The notes under the pieces: model-generated
Seen by the model: the letters and a program-made list of their open reading frames with translations, nothing else
Database searches by the model: none
What the model was told of the DNA's origin: nothing
Made by a program: the position numbers and the translations under genes
Part shown: positions 10,055 through 58,359 of the stretch, piece after piece
How the letters are laid out: each line of letters starts with the position of its first letter
How positions within the stretch are numbered: position 1 is the stretch's first letter
Assembly: GCA_002726235.1 (NCBI GenBank)
Contig: PBSN01000008.1
Span: 98,659 to 162,658, forward strand
Direction: 5' to 3'
DNA length: 64,000 bases
Source of the DNA: Nitrospiraceae bacterium
GTDB taxonomy: Bacteria; Nitrospirota; Nitrospiria; Nitrospirales; UBA2166

Positions 10055-10286
10055 TTCTAAACACGCTGTGATGCTCACGTAAAATGCATGTTGAGGCAGT
10101 AGGTAAAAGAAAATCGATTCGAATCAGTGATCGTCAACGGCATTATCATTAATCACCATGGTCAGATTTGAGTTTTTCTCAATGTATCGAAATGTATCGA
10201 GCAGAATGACTTTTGCGATGGGGATGCTTGTAAGGGAGAGTGGTGGATATATCACGGCTGCATCTCACGGAGTAGACCATGGGTGA
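10055..10286 (+). pseudogene. Decayed second copy of the ntrY 3' end
   Basis: This segment aligns with the end of the intact kinase gene. GATGCTCAC...TGTTGAGGCAG near 10073-10110 matches 7288-7330. GATCGTCAACGGCATTATC near 10129 matches 7419-7437, and AATCACCATGG is shared. About 70 bases covering the G1-to-G2 part of the ATPase domain are missing, and there are in-frame stops. The final codons (VDHG, then TGA at 10284-10286) match the intact end (VNHG, TAA) and overlap the start of the receiver-LpxC gene by 8 bases, as at the upstream copy. Confidence 0.75.
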
Positions 10287-11541
10287 AACCGTGCTTATTG
10301 TCGACGACGAGACCGCAATTCTGGAGTCTGTTTCCGGCATTCTACAAGACGAAGGGTTTAGTGTTGTGGCTGCGAATTGCAGTCGTGACGCCTTGGCCAT
10401 GATCAAGAAGTGTAATCCGTCACTTGTTCTCCTTGATGTCTGGATGCCAGATGAGGATGGCTTGACACTTTTAACGCGGCTCAAGACTTTGAGGCCGAAC
10501 ATGCCGGTGATCTTGATTACCGGTCATGGGACTATTGATACAGCTGTTCGTGCCATTCGACTTGGCGCTGTGGACTTTCTCGAAAAGCCTCTTTCATTAG
10601 ACGGTCTTGTTCAAGCTGTCAAAGGAGCAATTGGGAATGAAGTGACCAAGGTGGATGTGTTGCCCGTAAGCCAGACTGTCAAAAATCGCTATCGTGGTAG
10701 CAAAAGAGTATCGTCAGTGCCGCAACGAACAGTGGCTAAGAGTGTCGTGATAGGGGGAGTGGGGTTACACAGTGGTGTACGAACTGGCCTGATTTTGCAA
10801 CCACTCGGATTGAACAATGGGATTCGATTTAGCAGTCTTGCTGGTGATGGCGTGGTTGAGGCCCATCTTGATAATGTCGACTTGACTGGATATGCCACCA
10901 CGCTTCTCAAAGATGGGATGCGAGTACGCACAGTGGAACATTTCATGTCGTCGTTGCACGCTTATGGTATTACAAATCTTTTGGTGAAAGTTGAAGGAGA
11001 ACTTCCAATTCTTGATGGTTCTGCCAGCGAATTTTGCGAATTACTTGAGTCCGCTGGCATTGAAGAACAAGCGGGGACCTTGCCACAGATTGTCATCAAA
11101 GAACCAATTAGTGTGACAGACGGATTAGATGCCGAGATCTCGATTAGCCCGTATGAGGGATTTAAGATCACCTACGAACTCTCTCATCCACCTCCCGTTG
11201 GCGATCAAACATACACCTTTGAACTAGACTCACCTGCTGCCTTCTGTAACGAAATTGCCCCGGCGCGTACCTTCGGATTTTTAAATGAGGTGAGTGAATT
11301 GGAAGAAATGGGACTGGCCAAGGGGGGGAAACTCGACAACGTCATTCTCGTTTCAGATCACGGAGTGATTAATACCCCACTGCGGTTTTTAGAGGAATTT
11401 GCTCGCCACAAAATTCTCGACATCATAGGAGATTTTTATTTACTCGGACGGCCAATCAGCGGTGCAGTTCATGCACGAAAAACTGGCCATACCGAAAACA
11501 TTGCACTGCTACGAAAAATTCGAGAAACCATGAAACTCTAG
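10279..11541 (+). CDS. lpxC: Response-regulator receiver domain fused to LpxC (UDP-3-O-acyl-GlcNAc deacetylase)
   Basis: 420 residues. Residues 1-118 are a complete receiver domain: acidic pair Asp9/Asp10, phospho-acceptor Asp53 (LLDVWMPDEDG), Thr81 and Lys103. A linker of about 30 residues leads to LpxC (about 148-420), starting IGGVGLHSG. The zinc ligands His221 (TVEHF), His377 and Asp381 (RHKILDIIGD) and catalytic His404 (TGHTENI) are all in place. LpxC commits UDP-acyl-GlcNAc to lipid A. The fusion suggests that phosphorylation tunes deacetylase activity or stability; the NtrY-like kinase upstream is the natural candidate. The ATG overlaps a decayed kinase end. No DNA-binding or sigma-54 domain is present. 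Confidence 0.93.
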   Translation: MGETVLIVDDETAILESVSGILQDEGFSVVAANCSRDALAMIKKCNPSLVLLDVWMPDEDGLTLLTRLKTLRPNMPVILITGHGTIDTAVRAIRLGAVDFLEKPLSLDGLVQAVKGAIGNEVTKVDVLPVSQTVKNRYRGSKRVSSVPQRTVAKSVVIGGVGLHSGVRTGLILQPLGLNNGIRFSSLAGDGVVEAHLDNVDLTGYATTLLKDGMRVRTVEHFMSSLHAYGITNLLVKVEGELPILDGSASEFCELLESAGIEEQAGTLPQIVIKEPISVTDGLDAEISISPYEGFKITYELSHPPPVGDQTYTFELDSPAAFCNEIAPARTFGFLNEVSELEEMGLAKGGKLDNVILVSDHGVINTPLRFLEEFARHKILDIIGDFYLLGRPISGAVHARKTGHTENIALLRKIRETMKL

Positions 11542-30813: not shown

Positions 30814-31011
30814 ATGAAAATTCATCTCTCTCAGCCTGATCGAACTCTCGAGCTTCAAGGTCCCAAACAGGTTAAGGCGATTCTGAAAAACCTTGATATT
30901 ATTCCGGCGACTGTACTTGTCATTCGCGACGGTGGGCTTCTTACCGAAGATGAGATGGTTCGTGATGTGGACAGCATTGAGATTCGATCGGTGATCTCCG
31001 GGGGCATATAG
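30814..31011 (+). CDS. ttuB: MoaD/ThiS-type sulfur carrier, probable TtuB
   Basis: 65 residues with a beta-grasp pattern: MKIHLSQPDRTLEL, then VKAILKNLDIIPATVLVIRDG, and the C-terminal ISGGI. Such proteins carry sulfur as a thiocarboxylate on a C-terminal Gly-Gly; here one Ile follows the pair. The gene abuts a TtuA-type thiolase gene (TAG then ATG with no gap), which supports TtuB rather than ThiS or MoaD. An exposed Gly-Gly would need removal of the Ile. Confidence 0.8.
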   Translation: MKIHLSQPDRTLELQGPKQVKAILKNLDIIPATVLVIRDGGLLTEDEMVRDVDSIEIRSVISGGI

Positions 31012-31944
31012 ATGAAATGTCGTAAATGTTTAGACAAAGCGGTGTTGTCGATTCCCCGGCACAATACCGCGCTATGTGGTCCGTGTCTGACTGAGTATGC
31101 GCAAATTCAAGTGGAACGTGCGATCGGACGAGAGAAAATGTGTACAAAGGAGAACAAAATTCTCGTTGCAGTATCTGGAGGGAAGGACAGTCTGGCATTA
31201 TGGGATATTTTGCTGAAGTTGGGGTACTACGTAGATGGACTGTATGTGAACTTAGGCATCGGTCAGTATTCGGTTCGATCACGGCAAAAAGTGGAAGCGT
31301 TTGCGGAGTTGCGTAACGCAATGTTGTTCACAAAAGATGCCGCCAACGATGAGGGTATTGGCATTCGTGAGTTAGCCGATCTTGTGCGCCGTCCCACCTG
31401 TGCAGCGTGTGGGTGTATCAAACGCTACCAGTTCAATCGAGTGGCTGTTGATCAGAACTATGATGTTCTTGCCACAGGACACAATCTTGATGATGAAGCC
31501 GCTCGATTAATGGGAAATGTGCTGCGTTGGAACCAGGAGTTTCTTGAAAAGCAGGGGCCTGTTCTGCCCGCCTCGATGGAAGGTTTCGCGAAAAAGATCA
31601 AGCCCCTCTATCGTCTGACCGAACGAGAAATTGCAGCCTACTGTGTGGTGAACGGTATTGACTACATCGTTGAGGATTGTCCCATGGCGACGGGATCGCG
31701 ACTTCTTGTCTACAAGGAAGCACTGGATGTGATCGAGCAAGCTTCACCCGGGTCAAAACAGAGTTTTTATTGGGGTTTTCTTGTTCAGCAAGGGGCAAAA
31801 GCACAATTGGATCACCAATCGATGTCTGACCGAGACATCGCGATACTTCATCCCTGCGAAGAGTGTGGGCAGCCAACCTCTGCAGCAATGTGTAGCTACT
31901 GTAAGCTTATGGCGAAGGCGCAAATCCATCAAAAAGTCTCATAA
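31012..31944 (+). CDS. ttuA: tRNA 2-thiolation enzyme, TtuA type
   Basis: 310 residues. N-terminal zinc site (CRKC, then CGPC), PP-loop ATP site VAVSGGKDSLALWD, central cysteines TCAACGCIKRY and DCPMATGS that would hold the catalytic Fe-S cluster, and a C-terminal zinc site (CEECGQ, then CSYC). This is the TtuA/Ncs6 group. TtuA makes 2-thio-ribothymidine at tRNA position 54, using TtuB as sulfur donor; Ncs6-type relatives thiolate the wobble U34. The adjacent beta-grasp gene favours TtuA. Confidence 0.85.
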   Translation: MKCRKCLDKAVLSIPRHNTALCGPCLTEYAQIQVERAIGREKMCTKENKILVAVSGGKDSLALWDILLKLGYYVDGLYVNLGIGQYSVRSRQKVEAFAELRNAMLFTKDAANDEGIGIRELADLVRRPTCAACGCIKRYQFNRVAVDQNYDVLATGHNLDDEAARLMGNVLRWNQEFLEKQGPVLPASMEGFAKKIKPLYRLTEREIAAYCVVNGIDYIVEDCPMATGSRLLVYKEALDVIEQASPGSKQSFYWGFLVQQGAKAQLDHQSMSDRDIAILHPCEECGQPTSAAMCSYCKLMAKAQIHQKVS

Positions 31945-31946
31945 CC

Positions 31947-32699
31947 TTGTCACAACACAATCACTCGCTTCTCTCCGTTGTCATCCCGATTCATAACGAG
32001 CGTGACAATGTTTCTCCATTGACCGAACAGATTATTCGTGTTCTGTCAGACGCGCAGGAACCCTATGAGATTATTTTTATTGATGATGCAAGTACTGATG
32101 GGGGCGATGTCATTCTTGACAAACTCGACGCAGCGCACGAGGGTGTGCGGGTATTTCATTTTGCACAACGTTGTGGCCAGACTGCGGCGTTTGATGCTGG
32201 CTTTAAACAGGCTAGAGGCGATCATGTTGTCACGCTTGATGGGGACTTGCAATATGATCCCGCAGATATTCTTCGCTTGCTTCCCTTAAGTAAGAATTTT
32301 GACCTTGTGTGCGGAAGGCGAGCGACACGAAATGATGATGCGATTCGAGGATTCTCTTCTCGACTGGCTAATGAGGTTCGGAATTTTGTAACCCGTGATC
32401 ATGTGCATGATACGGGGTGTTCGTTGAAAATATTCAGTCGAAATCTAGTCGATCGATTGCAGCTTTTTGACGGAATGCATCGATTTTTTCCAGCACTTGC
32501 AAAGATGCATGGCTGTACTGTAACCGAGTGTGATGTCCAGCATTTTCCGCGTGTCCACGGAGAATCGAAGTATGGCATCTGGAATCGATTGTGGCGTGGG
32601 CTTGTGGATTTATGTGCGGTGTGGTGGATGAACAGGCGTTGTCTGCGATATGAGTATCGATTCTCGGCAGCAACTCAAACGAAAAAGGAGTCACCATGA
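31947..32699 (+). CDS. Glycosyltransferase family 2
   Basis: 250 residues. GT-A fold start LLSVVIPIHNERDNVSPL, DXD-like TLDGDLQYDPADI, and IIFIDDASTDGG. It resembles dolichyl/undecaprenyl-phosphate sugar transferases but has no C-terminal membrane pair. No ATG is near the fold start; the frame begins with TTG at 31947, without a visible ribosome-binding site, so the start is uncertain. The stop overlaps the next gene by four bases. Confidence 0.82.
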   Translation: MSQHNHSLLSVVIPIHNERDNVSPLTEQIIRVLSDAQEPYEIIFIDDASTDGGDVILDKLDAAHEGVRVFHFAQRCGQTAAFDAGFKQARGDHVVTLDGDLQYDPADILRLLPLSKNFDLVCGRRATRNDDAIRGFSSRLANEVRNFVTRDHVHDTGCSLKIFSRNLVDRLQLFDGMHRFFPALAKMHGCTVTECDVQHFPRVHGESKYGIWNRLWRGLVDLCAVWWMNRRCLRYEYRFSAATQTKKESP

Positions 32700-54967: not shown

Positions 54968-55084
54968 GCTTGCTGTGCTTTGAAGTGGCAGTGTATGTAT
55001 ATTGGGGTACGGATGGATCACGATAACACTCGGCTAGGTGTTGCAATCAAGAGCTGAGTGTTTCGTTTTTTGGAGGATAGAAAA

Positions 55085-55972
55085 ATGAGTCTTGAGTATG
55101 TCAAGTTCACTCCAGGGTTTGCGAAGTTTATGCCGAAAGAATATCGGGACATGGTCGACCATGGTCCGTTTGGAAGGAAAACAACGGTCGCTCAGACGGG
55201 GCAGTTCAAGGAGATTCTTGAAGAGCATCCAATGTGTGCGGGATGTGCCATGACGCTATTCATCCGACTGGCCTTCATTGCATTGCCCAATCCTGAAGAC
55301 ACTGTTATGGTCGGGACAGCTGGTTGTGGCCGTCTCGCGATATCCCAAGCAGCCATTCAATTTGTATACGGCAACTATGGGGATACCAATGCCGTTGCAT
55401 CCGGGTTGACTCGCGGTCTTAAACTCAGGTTTGGAGATAAACCGAAGGATGTTGTGGTCATGGCTGGCGATGGCGGACTAGCCGATATTGGGTTTGGAAA
55501 CACGCTCCATTCTTGGTTTAGGAAGGAAAAGTTTACGACGGTTATGCTTGATAATGAGATCTATGGGAATACCGGTGGGCAAGAGAGTGGTATGACGAAT
55601 AAAGGCCAGGTGTTAAAAATGGCGCCACTAGGGAAAAAGTTTGAGAAAATGGATATGCTGGGTATGGCAAAGGTTGCGGGGTGTGCGTACGTCGCTTCCG
55701 TCATCCCCAATAATCCAAAACGAGTGGAGAGCGTGATAAAGAAAGCTGTTTTGGTTGCGCGTGAAGTTGGACCGACCTACATTCAAGCGTATACCTCCTG
55801 CAATATTGAATACGGTATTCCAACCGAGCAGGTGATGCAGGATGCCAAGGATGTTGAAAAAGAGCGATATGCATTTTCGGAGTATATTACCGATGACGCA
55901 AAAGAATATTTGGCAACTCAGCATGGCTACAAACAATATCTTCCGAAGCCAGCACCTGCCAGTGTGAGTTGA
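55085..55972 (+). CDS. porB: 2-oxoacid:ferredoxin oxidoreductase beta subunit
   Basis: About 295 residues from ATG 55085 (GGAGG about 10 bases upstream). Thiamine diphosphate motif GDGGLADIGFGNTL with the metal-binding continuation DNEIYGNTGGQ. Fe-S cysteines CAGCAM and GTAGCGR. Catalyses pyruvate or 2-oxoglutarate synthesis/cleavage with CoA and ferredoxin; which 2-oxoacid is used cannot be told. First gene of beta-gamma-delta-alpha order, fitting the separate-subunit enzymes used in the reductive TCA cycle. Confidence 0.9.
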   Translation: MSLEYVKFTPGFAKFMPKEYRDMVDHGPFGRKTTVAQTGQFKEILEEHPMCAGCAMTLFIRLAFIALPNPEDTVMVGTAGCGRLAISQAAIQFVYGNYGDTNAVASGLTRGLKLRFGDKPKDVVVMAGDGGLADIGFGNTLHSWFRKEKFTTVMLDNEIYGNTGGQESGMTNKGQVLKMAPLGKKFEKMDMLGMAKVAGCAYVASVIPNNPKRVESVIKKAVLVAREVGPTYIQAYTSCNIEYGIPTEQVMQDAKDVEKERYAFSEYITDDAKEYLATQHGYKQYLPKPAPASVS

Positions 55973-56022
55973 CGAACACATGAGTGAGTCTGAAAGAGAT
56001 AGGTATGTAAGCGAGGGATCTG

Positions 56023-56727
56023 ATGGCAAAACGGTTTAATATTCGCATGGCGGGTCTCGGAGGGCAGGGCGTCGTCACTGCCTCCCATATTTTCAGTACA
56101 GCTGTTCTCGGATTCGGTGGTGAAAGCACCATTGTCCCATTCTATGGATCAGAAAAACGGATGGCTCCAGTTGAGAGTTATGTGCGGGTTTCGAATGAAC
56201 CGATTTATGAGATTGGGGAAATTACCTTTCCTCACATCATTATGATTTTTCATCCCCAGGTGATCACGCACGGCAAGTCATATACCATGCCGTTCTACTT
56301 TGGGCTGAAACAGGATGGCGTGTGTTTGATCAACGCCGATGCTCCCATGTCTCTTCCGCCCGACGAGACACGGGAACTTAAGGAAAAAAATATCAGCTTG
56401 TATTACATCCCAGCCTATACCATGGCGCTGGATGTTGCTGGGACGGATTTGGCCACCAATATGGCAATGGTTGGTGCGATCGGTGCGATTACAGGGCTTG
56501 CAGACCTTGACTCTATGGCGGAGGCTGTGAAAGAGCGGTTTCTTGGGAAAGGTTTCGTGGTATCTGGAGGCACCGCTGCTCTTGACAGTGTCGTCGAAAA
56601 GAAGTTCAAGAAAAAGCAGGACTTGATTGATAAAAACATTGATGTTCTCAGAGCCGCGTATCAGTACGCTGATGAGCATGGTTGGAGGCCGGAAGGCGTG
56701 CAACAGCCAACGAAAGCTCTCGCATAG
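56023..56727 (+). CDS. porG: 2-oxoacid:ferredoxin oxidoreductase gamma subunit
   Basis: 234 residues. Start FNIRMAGLGGQGVVTASHIF is the typical gamma opening (GxGGQG). VPFYGSEKRMAPVESYVRVSN and the following half are characteristic. It contacts CoA and the alpha-beta core. 50 bases after beta and 10 before delta, so part of one operon. The C-terminal 40 residues are rather charged. Confidence 0.9.
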   Translation: MAKRFNIRMAGLGGQGVVTASHIFSTAVLGFGGESTIVPFYGSEKRMAPVESYVRVSNEPIYEIGEITFPHIIMIFHPQVITHGKSYTMPFYFGLKQDGVCLINADAPMSLPPDETRELKEKNISLYYIPAYTMALDVAGTDLATNMAMVGAIGAITGLADLDSMAEAVKERFLGKGFVVSGGTAALDSVVEKKFKKKQDLIDKNIDVLRAAYQYADEHGWRPEGVQQPTKALA

Positions 56728-56737
56728 GAGCAATGAA

Positions 56738-57067
56738 ATGTATCTTGTCGCAGACATAGATCAGGATATTTGTTCGGGTACTAGCTGTAAGTTGTGTACA
56801 CAATATTGCCCTGAGGCCAATACGATTCAGTATGACGAGGGGCTTGGTGCGGAAGGTTCGAAGTATGGTTCTGCCTACGTGTCTGTGGATCGCTGTAAGG
56901 GGTGTGCGATTTGTGTGTGGGTCTGTGACACCATGGCAAAACACCATGCGATTAAGCTAGAGATGATTGATAAAATACCAGAAATTGCCACGACACTTGG
57001 GATGCAGTACACCGCAACTGGGGTGGTTGCCGAGAGAATAAAATCTGAAGTTCTGTCCGAGGGTTAA
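56738..57067 (+). CDS. porD: 2-oxoacid:ferredoxin oxidoreductase delta subunit (2x[4Fe-4S])
   Basis: 109 residues from ATG 56738, with AGGAG upstream. Two ferredoxin-type cluster sites: CSGTSCKLCTQYCPE and CKGCAICVWVCDT. It passes electrons between the core and ferredoxin. The spacing in the first site (C-x4-C-x2-C-x3-C) is slightly wider than the standard site. It ends three bases before the alpha gene. Confidence 0.9.
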   Translation: MYLVADIDQDICSGTSCKLCTQYCPEANTIQYDEGLGAEGSKYGSAYVSVDRCKGCAICVWVCDTMAKHHAIKLEMIDKIPEIATTLGMQYTATGVVAERIKSEVLSEG

Positions 57068-57069
57068 TT

Positions 57070-58359
57070 ATGACTGAAAAGCGAGAAGGCGAGGCGAAAA
57101 CGAATCCACAAGGTGATCCCGTTACAAGTGTTGTTGCTGAGGGGAAGATTGATCCTCATGGGGAGGCAAAACAACAGAGGGTCGTCACGCCCCATCACAT
57201 GTTTTTTGAGGCGGAACGGAAACGTGAGTTTATTACTGGAAGTGAAGCTGCCAAAGAGGCTGTTCGACGTTCCAATATTGACTTTTCAGTAGCGTATCCC
57301 ATCACGCCGCAAAGCGAGACGATGCAATTGGTTGGCGTGCTGTATGGTGAAGGATACATCAAAGATTACTACCGTGGAGAAGAGGAATATGGGGTCATGT
57401 CGGCGATGGCGGGAGCATCACGGGCCGGTGTCAGATGTTTTACCGCGACCGCAGGCCCTGGCACCATCAGAGGGCTTGAGCCAATCGTTTCCTGGCCAGG
57501 GCATCGCTTGCCGGCAGTTGCGATGTTCACCTGTCGTGTCGTCAATGCGCCTCTTGCAATTCAGCCTGATAATGTTGAAATTGCCTACCTGTTGAATTGT
57601 GGGATGATTGTGTTTCATGCGGAGAATCAAAACGATCTTTTTAACTACATAATGAAGGGTTTTATTATTGGCGAGCACAATGAAATTACGCTTCCGGTTG
57701 GCGTGTGCTGTGATGGATTTTTCGTCACGCATGCTCGTGGCTATGTGTATACGACGCCGCGGGAATTAAAACTGCCGCCACGGGATCCCTATGGAGGTGC
57801 GGTTCCTGTACTGGATGCCGAAAACCCTCCGGCGCGTCTTTCGCGCGATGCTCCTGTTCAGAAGAGTAACTTTATGGCGTATAACATCCACGCAGTGTGG
57901 CAACAGGAGATATGGGCCGCCGTCGAACGATCGAGAAAGTATATTCACCGCTACATGGGTGGTCTCATCGAAACCGAGAATGAAGATAGAGATATACTCT
58001 TTATTGCCTCGGGAAGTGCTGCGGCGCAATCTCGAGAGGCCGTCAGGTTGTGTGCTGAGGAAGGGATTGAGACTGGTTTTGTGAAGATCGCGTCGTTGCG
58101 TCCGTTCCCAACTGAAGAACTCAGGAAAATCTGTAAACATACGAAGATCATTGTCGTTCCGGAGTTCAACTATATTGGCTGGCTGGCCAAGGATATCGCT
58201 GCTGCGATTAGTGGCTACTCTGATGCCAAGGTTATCTACGGGCCGCATGTCTATGGTGGCATGTCGATGCCGGTAGAAATGATTCGCGATGAGGTTGTGA
58301 GGGCACTAAAAGAGAAGTCAACGATTATTGTTTCCAAGGCAAAGATGACGAAGAAATAG
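57070..58359 (+). CDS. porA: 2-oxoacid:ferredoxin oxidoreductase alpha subunit
   Basis: 429 residues. A polar N-terminal extension of about 50 residues precedes FITGSEAAKEAVRRSNIDFSVAYPITPQSE, the alpha opening. EEEYGVMSAMAGASRAGVR and FTATAGPGTIRGLEPI follow. The C-terminal domain has SASAAAQS-like FIASGSAAAQSREAV. It is the last gene of the operon and is followed by a strong terminator. No fifth small subunit, as in ForE-type complexes, was found next to it. Confidence 0.92.
   Translation: MTEKREGEAKTNPQGDPVTSVVAEGKIDPHGEAKQQRVVTPHHMFFEAERKREFITGSEAAKEAVRRSNIDFSVAYPITPQSETMQLVGVLYGEGYIKDYYRGEEEYGVMSAMAGASRAGVRCFTATAGPGTIRGLEPIVSWPGHRLPAVAMFTCRVVNAPLAIQPDNVEIAYLLNCGMIVFHAENQNDLFNYIMKGFIIGEHNEITLPVGVCCDGFFVTHARGYVYTTPRELKLPPRDPYGGAVPVLDAENPPARLSRDAPVQKSNFMAYNIHAVWQQEIWAAVERSRKYIHRYMGGLIETENEDRDILFIASGSAAAQSREAVRLCAEEGIETGFVKIASLRPFPTEELRKICKHTKIIVVPEFNYIGWLAKDIAAAISGYSDAKVIYGPHVYGGMSMPVEMIRDEVVRALKEKSTIIVSKAKMTKK

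Follow-up and report, generated by a model that had tools for sequence, protein, structure and literature searches.

Known Sulfur Carrier Systems

The closest described counterpart of the locus analyzed here is the TtuA–TtuB system of Thermus thermophilus (PDB 5gha, 5ztb, and 5b4e), with which it shares, on the enzyme side, the PP-loop, the three cluster cysteines, K137, and the zinc fingers, and, on the carrier side, a beta-grasp protein bearing an ISGG motif in a genome that also encodes TrmFO. It differs in that GG closes the Thermus TtuB sequence in the PDB alignment, whereas our TtuB continues with an Ile and belongs to a lineage that is not known as thermophilic. The archaeal and eukaryotic NcsA–Ncs6 systems, with SAMP2/Urm1, likewise rely on a homologous enzyme and carrier but act at U34, and our TtuA matches them with much lower scores. 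Carriers with residues after GG that are associated with a JAMM protease are found in QbsE/QbsD and HcyS/HcyD; these serve other pathways, and in our genome TtuB and JAMM lie on different contigs (our literature search returned no text on QbsE/QbsD). In Deinococcus, according to the available part of PMC8832034, a JAMM protease (DRJAMM) cuts a MoaD–MoaE fusion to a C-terminal Gly. The likeness lies in a carrier extended past Gly-Gly and a JAMM in the genome, our source genome having a MoaD–MoaE fusion as well, but here TtuB serves tRNA thiolation, the tail is a single residue, and cleavage is only predicted. Finally, deletion of the Thermus JAMM is described, in the available part of PMC3980101, as giving aberrant TtuB conjugates and about half of the thiouridine.

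A ttuB–ttuA Pair with an Extended Carrier

The window, by which we mean the whole 64,000-nucleotide stretch analyzed, lies on contig C8 of a Nitrospirales genome (1.87 Mb, 27 contigs, 90.7% complete). By ORF reading it carries, on the forward strand, ttuB (30814-31011), which encodes 65 aa with the C-terminus ...EIRSVISGGI, and ttuA (31012-31944), which encodes 310 aa and whose ATG stands immediately 3' of the ttuB TAG. The TtuB–TtuA pair that the initial annotation placed at 30814-31944 is thereby confirmed, both ORFs being found there with Thermus TtuA and TtuB as best PDB relatives, and so is its observation that the carrier ends in GGI rather than GG. The neighbors are an NHL-repeat protein gene upstream and, three bases past ttuA, an ORF for a family-2 glycosyltransferase (31947-32699, +) with no apparent functional link to the pair. 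Both ttuB and ttuA are retained in two further genomes of the same genus, where TtuB ends in GGV and GGA.

Thermus TtuB was the nearest PDB match of TtuB with a single sequence (2e-7) as well as with a 20-sequence profile (1.5e-12), and the AlphaFold2 model (mean pLDDT 89) is, as read from the order of its elements, of the beta-grasp fold. Residues 63-65 fall below 50 and are thus disordered in this model; they comprise Gly63-Gly64 (codons at 31000-31005, +) and the extra Ile65 (31006-31008, +), which we predict to be trimmed. The Pfam ThiS model gave 22.4 bits against a cut-off of 22.5, and TtuB was absent from the listing of the genome-wide ThiS search.

For TtuA, the nearest PDB match was Thermus TtuA (1e-79, 272 bits), followed by Pyrococcus TtuA (4e-69). 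With 252.7 bits it falls under the cut-off of 450 of the NCBIfam equivalog NF049949, named for Pyrococcus TtuA, and is therefore not filed as that equivalog. The functional elements located in it, all encoded on the forward strand, are an N-terminal zinc finger (31018-31086; Pfam TtuA_LIM_N) in which C3, C6, and C22 are shared by all of 11 aligned TtuAs and C25 by nearly all; the PP-loop SGGKDS (S55-S60, 31174-31191), which does not vary in this alignment; C130 and C133, putative ligands of a [4Fe-4S] cluster by homology and alignment to Thermus TtuA, together with K137 (31399-31422); C223, by homology the third cluster cysteine (31678-31680); and a C-terminal zinc finger (C282, C285, C294, and C297, 31855-31902). 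The same alignment shows no variation at S55, D59, C130, C133, K137, D161, C223, or the C-terminal zinc cysteines, and S55, D59, K137, and D161 are essential in Thermus TtuA, as stated in the accessible portion of PMC7138817.

An Invariant Gly-Gly Followed by a Variable Tail

Gly-Gly occurs without exception in 20 aligned TtuBs, and relatives either end exactly there or carry 1-19 variable residues after it, the observed ends being GG, GGA, GGV, GGN, GGS, longer tails, and a full fusion. Regarding the question raised initially of whether relatives share the GGI end, tails are thus common but GGI itself is not fixed. At 44 of the 50 TtuA loci of the order set, a TtuB was detected nearby (25 with an exact GG and 19 tailed), while the named loci, that is the best 80 of at least 494 relatives, comprised 14 with exact GG, 47 tailed, 6 fused, and 13 without TtuB. 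The two sets overlap in part, and these counts rest on a profile search, an earlier pattern search having missed some TtuB copies. Some of the loci without TtuB beside TtuA (6/50 in the order set, 13/80 in the named set) are cut short upstream. The 13 named loci with no TtuB in the fetched flanks are all titled Nitrospira, Nitrospirae, or Nitrospirales, and include L088 from Nitrospira moscoviensis.

Many of the named loci (among the best 80 of at least 494) have a two-residue tail because the TGA of ttuB overlaps the ATG of ttuA. A quick tree of 89 TtuAs (128 before removal of near-copies) required at least 13 changes among the three tail states, only one of which (support 84) concerned the fused state. 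Since Gly-Gly is invariant and the tail state has often changed, the tail looks, on sequence grounds, like a freely changing extension in this lineage.

The fused state corresponds to an in-frame TtuB–TtuA fusion in 6 of the 80 named loci (L111, L120, L122, L135, L140, and L150; about 1797-2985 of each locus), all from Actinomycetota and several titled Nitriliruptoria. Profiles recognized both domains, Gly-Gly is kept in 6/6, and five fusions lack any start codon in the segment from Gly-Gly to the first zinc cysteine; L111 has an ATG in that segment and could hence be two overlapping genes. A fusion that retains Gly-Gly inside it is difficult to account for unless it is cut after GG. The fetched flanks of the six loci held no JAMM motif. 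Iyer and colleagues anticipated that JAB proteases would cut ThiS/MoaD fusions (PMC1779556, available text), but a TtuB–TtuA fusion is mentioned neither in the available text of that article nor in that of PMC2948915, and none was found in our literature search.

Proposed Maturation of TtuB and Competing Explanations

We regard it as likely that the locus encodes a TtuA–TtuB tRNA thiolation pair whose carrier is opened by proteolysis. TtuB would be made as a pro-protein ending in ISGG-Ile, from which Ile would most likely be removed by the JAMM/JAB protease, whose gene neighbors those of two MoeB-like E1 enzymes on contig C13. An E1 would then adenylate the exposed Gly, a sulfur donor would convert this Gly to a thiocarboxylate, and TtuA, using [4Fe-4S] and ATP, would move the sulfur to U54/m5U54 of tRNA, the 5-methyl group being made by TrmFO. 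Tail removal, the enzyme in charge, the relay, and position 54 are the steps that we infer; the gene pair, the conserved catalytic residues, Gly-Gly and its tail, the JAMM, the two E1s, TrmFO (652 bits), MnmA (402 bits), and the relatives' fusions are read in the sequences themselves. In one Actinomycetota clade, the extension after Gly-Gly is TtuA itself. That a carrier-maturing peptidase is retained probably explains why the tail is tolerated. As to TrmI (PF08704), it was not found in the source genome (90.7% complete), but the idea of a missing m1A58 determinant was dropped: 54/57 genomes of the order set have a TrmI match, so a gap in this genome is likelier.

The sole PF14464 (JAMM) match of the whole genome (4e-26, over the cut-off) lies on contig C13, which agrees with the initial statement that the window holds no JAMM protease gene and answers its call for a genome-wide search. 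This protein has the metal site HSHx7SxxD, and its best PDB match was 2kks; PfJAMM1, present together with SAMP2 in entry 5lda, was matched at 1e-5. Its gene neighbors a SAMP1/MoaD-like carrier ending in AGG-N, a NIL-domain protein, and an E1, the same block of contig C13 also including threonine synthase, the second E1, and a ThiS–CysK fusion. JAMM was detected in 54/57 genomes of the order set (E < 1e-14); G003, of the same genus, with a GGV tail and 96% complete, gave no JAMM match.

None of the genome's five ubiquitin-fold sulfur carriers stops at Gly-Gly, and two are fusion proteins. In the first (L046:8362-9477, contig C13, adjoining an E1), a ThiS domain precedes the cysteine synthase CysK (FYMGGG-QGTVDV), in what looks like a carrier-enzyme pro-protein. 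The second is a MoaD–MoaE fusion (PPFAGG-AGTLSV; L047:2260-2964, contig C8), common in the order, some relatives having a separate MoaD with a short tail. A stand-alone ThiS (L048:2213-2446, contig C7) has 11 residues after GGG, and the ThiS of sampled relatives is tailed too. Among the relatives' ThiS, MoaD, and SAMP1-like carrier loci (89 readable out of 90 fetched), 7 end exactly at Gly and 82 are longer, including 15 MoaD–MoaE fusions; for carriers ending in GGG, which Gly is the mature one is uncertain. Two genomes of the same order, G019 and G022, encode a further ThiS-family carrier ending in ALSGG, an exact Gly-Gly end (L199 and L202).

The co-occurrence of tail and JAMM was considered as a test of the trimming enzyme and set aside. 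The order itself offers no contrast, JAMM occurring almost throughout (54/57). In a comparison of 49 genomes, a strong JAMM match was found in 25/36 with a tailed TtuB versus 11/13 with an exact GG, that is, no association (Fisher p 0.47). These 49 genomes stand for 49 of the 55 named loci (from the best 80 of at least 494) with a TtuB by pattern search, six tailed loci, mostly near-copies, having been left out and the six fused loci not being part of it; a 50th genome searched, that of N. moscoviensis, without adjacent TtuB, has a strong JAMM match. Among the 13 JAMM-lacking genomes, 8 have an E1, and 7 of these 8 have a tailed TtuB. E1 was missing in 5/13 JAMM-lacking versus 2/17 JAMM-bearing genomes (p 0.19), which suggests that assembly or MAG gaps explain part of the pattern. 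The E1 of G065, for instance, lies at the edge of a 3.2-kb contig, but in G070 no JAMM motif occurs in about 1.5 kb past the E1 on a 46-kb contig. Given this lack of association, a JAMM can be proposed, rather than asserted, as the trimming enzyme: the initial suggestion that such a protease trims the carrier is plausible, even though genomes with a tailed TtuB are not those in which JAMM is preferentially found.

The same data leave some room, in our opinion a rather small one, for the same thiolation system with a tail removed by another peptidase or carboxypeptidase, JAMM serving other carriers or freeing TtuB from conjugates. The absent association and the eight genomes with an E1 and no detected JAMM point in that direction, as does the action of the Thermus JAMM on TtuB conjugates (PMC3980101, available part); against it stand the presence of JAMM in 54/57 set genomes, its clustering here with E1 and a carrier, and the precedent of JAMM cutting carrier fusions (PMC8832034, available part). 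It seems improbable to us that TtuB acts, chiefly or in addition, as a modifier attached to TtuA, E1, or other proteins and released from them by JAMM as a deconjugase. Conjugates of TtuB with TtuA and TtuC do occur in Thermus (PMC3980101, available part), and our JAMM matches the NCBIfam desampylase NF041370 with 75 bits, albeit under the cut-off of 130, but the tight ttuB–ttuA linkage and the TtuB–TtuA fusions indicate that thiolation is what TtuB mainly serves.

Thiolation of another tRNA position, for example U34, would be suggested by the homology of TtuA to NcsA/Ncs6, NcsA acting at U34. We nevertheless deem it very unlikely, as TtuA scores far higher against the TtuA type (253 bits against the NCBIfam TtuA model versus 94 bits against the NcsA model; NcsA 6scy was matched in the PDB at 4e-23, with 86 bits) and as the genome encodes both MnmA, so that s2U34 is served separately, and TrmFO. 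Lastly, use of TtuB-GGI without trimming, on the grounds that the tail is a single residue and that the available literature yielded no study of such a pro-form, is in our view extremely unlikely, since length and sequence vary after Gly-Gly but Gly-Gly itself does not, the Thermus thiocarboxylate forms on a C-terminal Gly (PMC3980101, available part), and full TtuA fusions, which keep Gly-Gly, cannot be activated uncut; the initial claim that the residue after Gly-Gly needs removal is thereby largely supported.

Possible Position-54 Thiolation outside Thermophiles

Full-length TtuA (E < 1e-100) is encoded in 49/57 genomes of the order set, one more copy being cut at a contig end, and is therefore normal in the order. 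Its closest named relatives, among the matches listed, come from Nitrospira, other Nitrospirales MAGs, and N. moscoviensis. The best 80 of at least 494 relatives span Nitrospirota, many Actinomycetota, and a few Rokubacteria, Myxococcota, Chloroflexota, Bacillota, and Armatimonadota, with taxa taken from record titles, some of which are plainly wrong for the organism. The words palsa, fen, and Chersky in several titles presumably denote cold sites. The composition of 56 mechanical window ORFs gave a crude temperature estimate of ~42 degrees C.

The thiolated nucleoside m5s2U54 is stated to be absent from mesophiles (PMC6313347) and exclusive to thermophiles (PMC5372745), at least in the available parts of these articles, and our literature search found no paper on TtuA in Nitrospira. 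The mesophile context that the initial annotation singled out is accordingly notable in that reviews confine the product to thermophiles, among which this lineage is not known to count, but it is not peculiar to this genome, TtuA being encoded in 49/57 genomes of the order set and in many Actinomycetota MAGs. In other words, this is a known pathway, standard in Nitrospirales yet little noticed there, and the interesting part lies in the pro-TtuB, the fused TtuB–TtuA, and the order-wide presence outside thermophiles. If m5s2U/s2T54 were present in these groups, the accepted role in heat adaptation would need widening, and the complete genome of N. moscoviensis, which has TtuA, makes s2T54 outside thermophiles testable. 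The TtuB–TtuA fusion and the all-tailed carrier set further suggest that, as with ubiquitin precursors, proteolytic maturation may be the point at which sulfur transfer is controlled in common. More tentatively still, non-thermophilic Nitrospirota and Actinomycetota might possess a standing position-54 thiolation, with the flow of sulfur into tRNA, thiamine, molybdopterin, and cysteine passing through one proteolytic gate, every carrier being a pro-protein opened by a single JAMM; we see this as less likely than not.

Elsewhere in the window, we observed an unusual pairing of a response-regulator receiver domain fused to the lipid A deacetylase LpxC (10279-11541, +), as well as 2-oxoacid:ferredoxin oxidoreductase-like subunits (TPP enzyme, POR, and POR_N; 55058-58359, +) that would fit a reverse TCA cycle.
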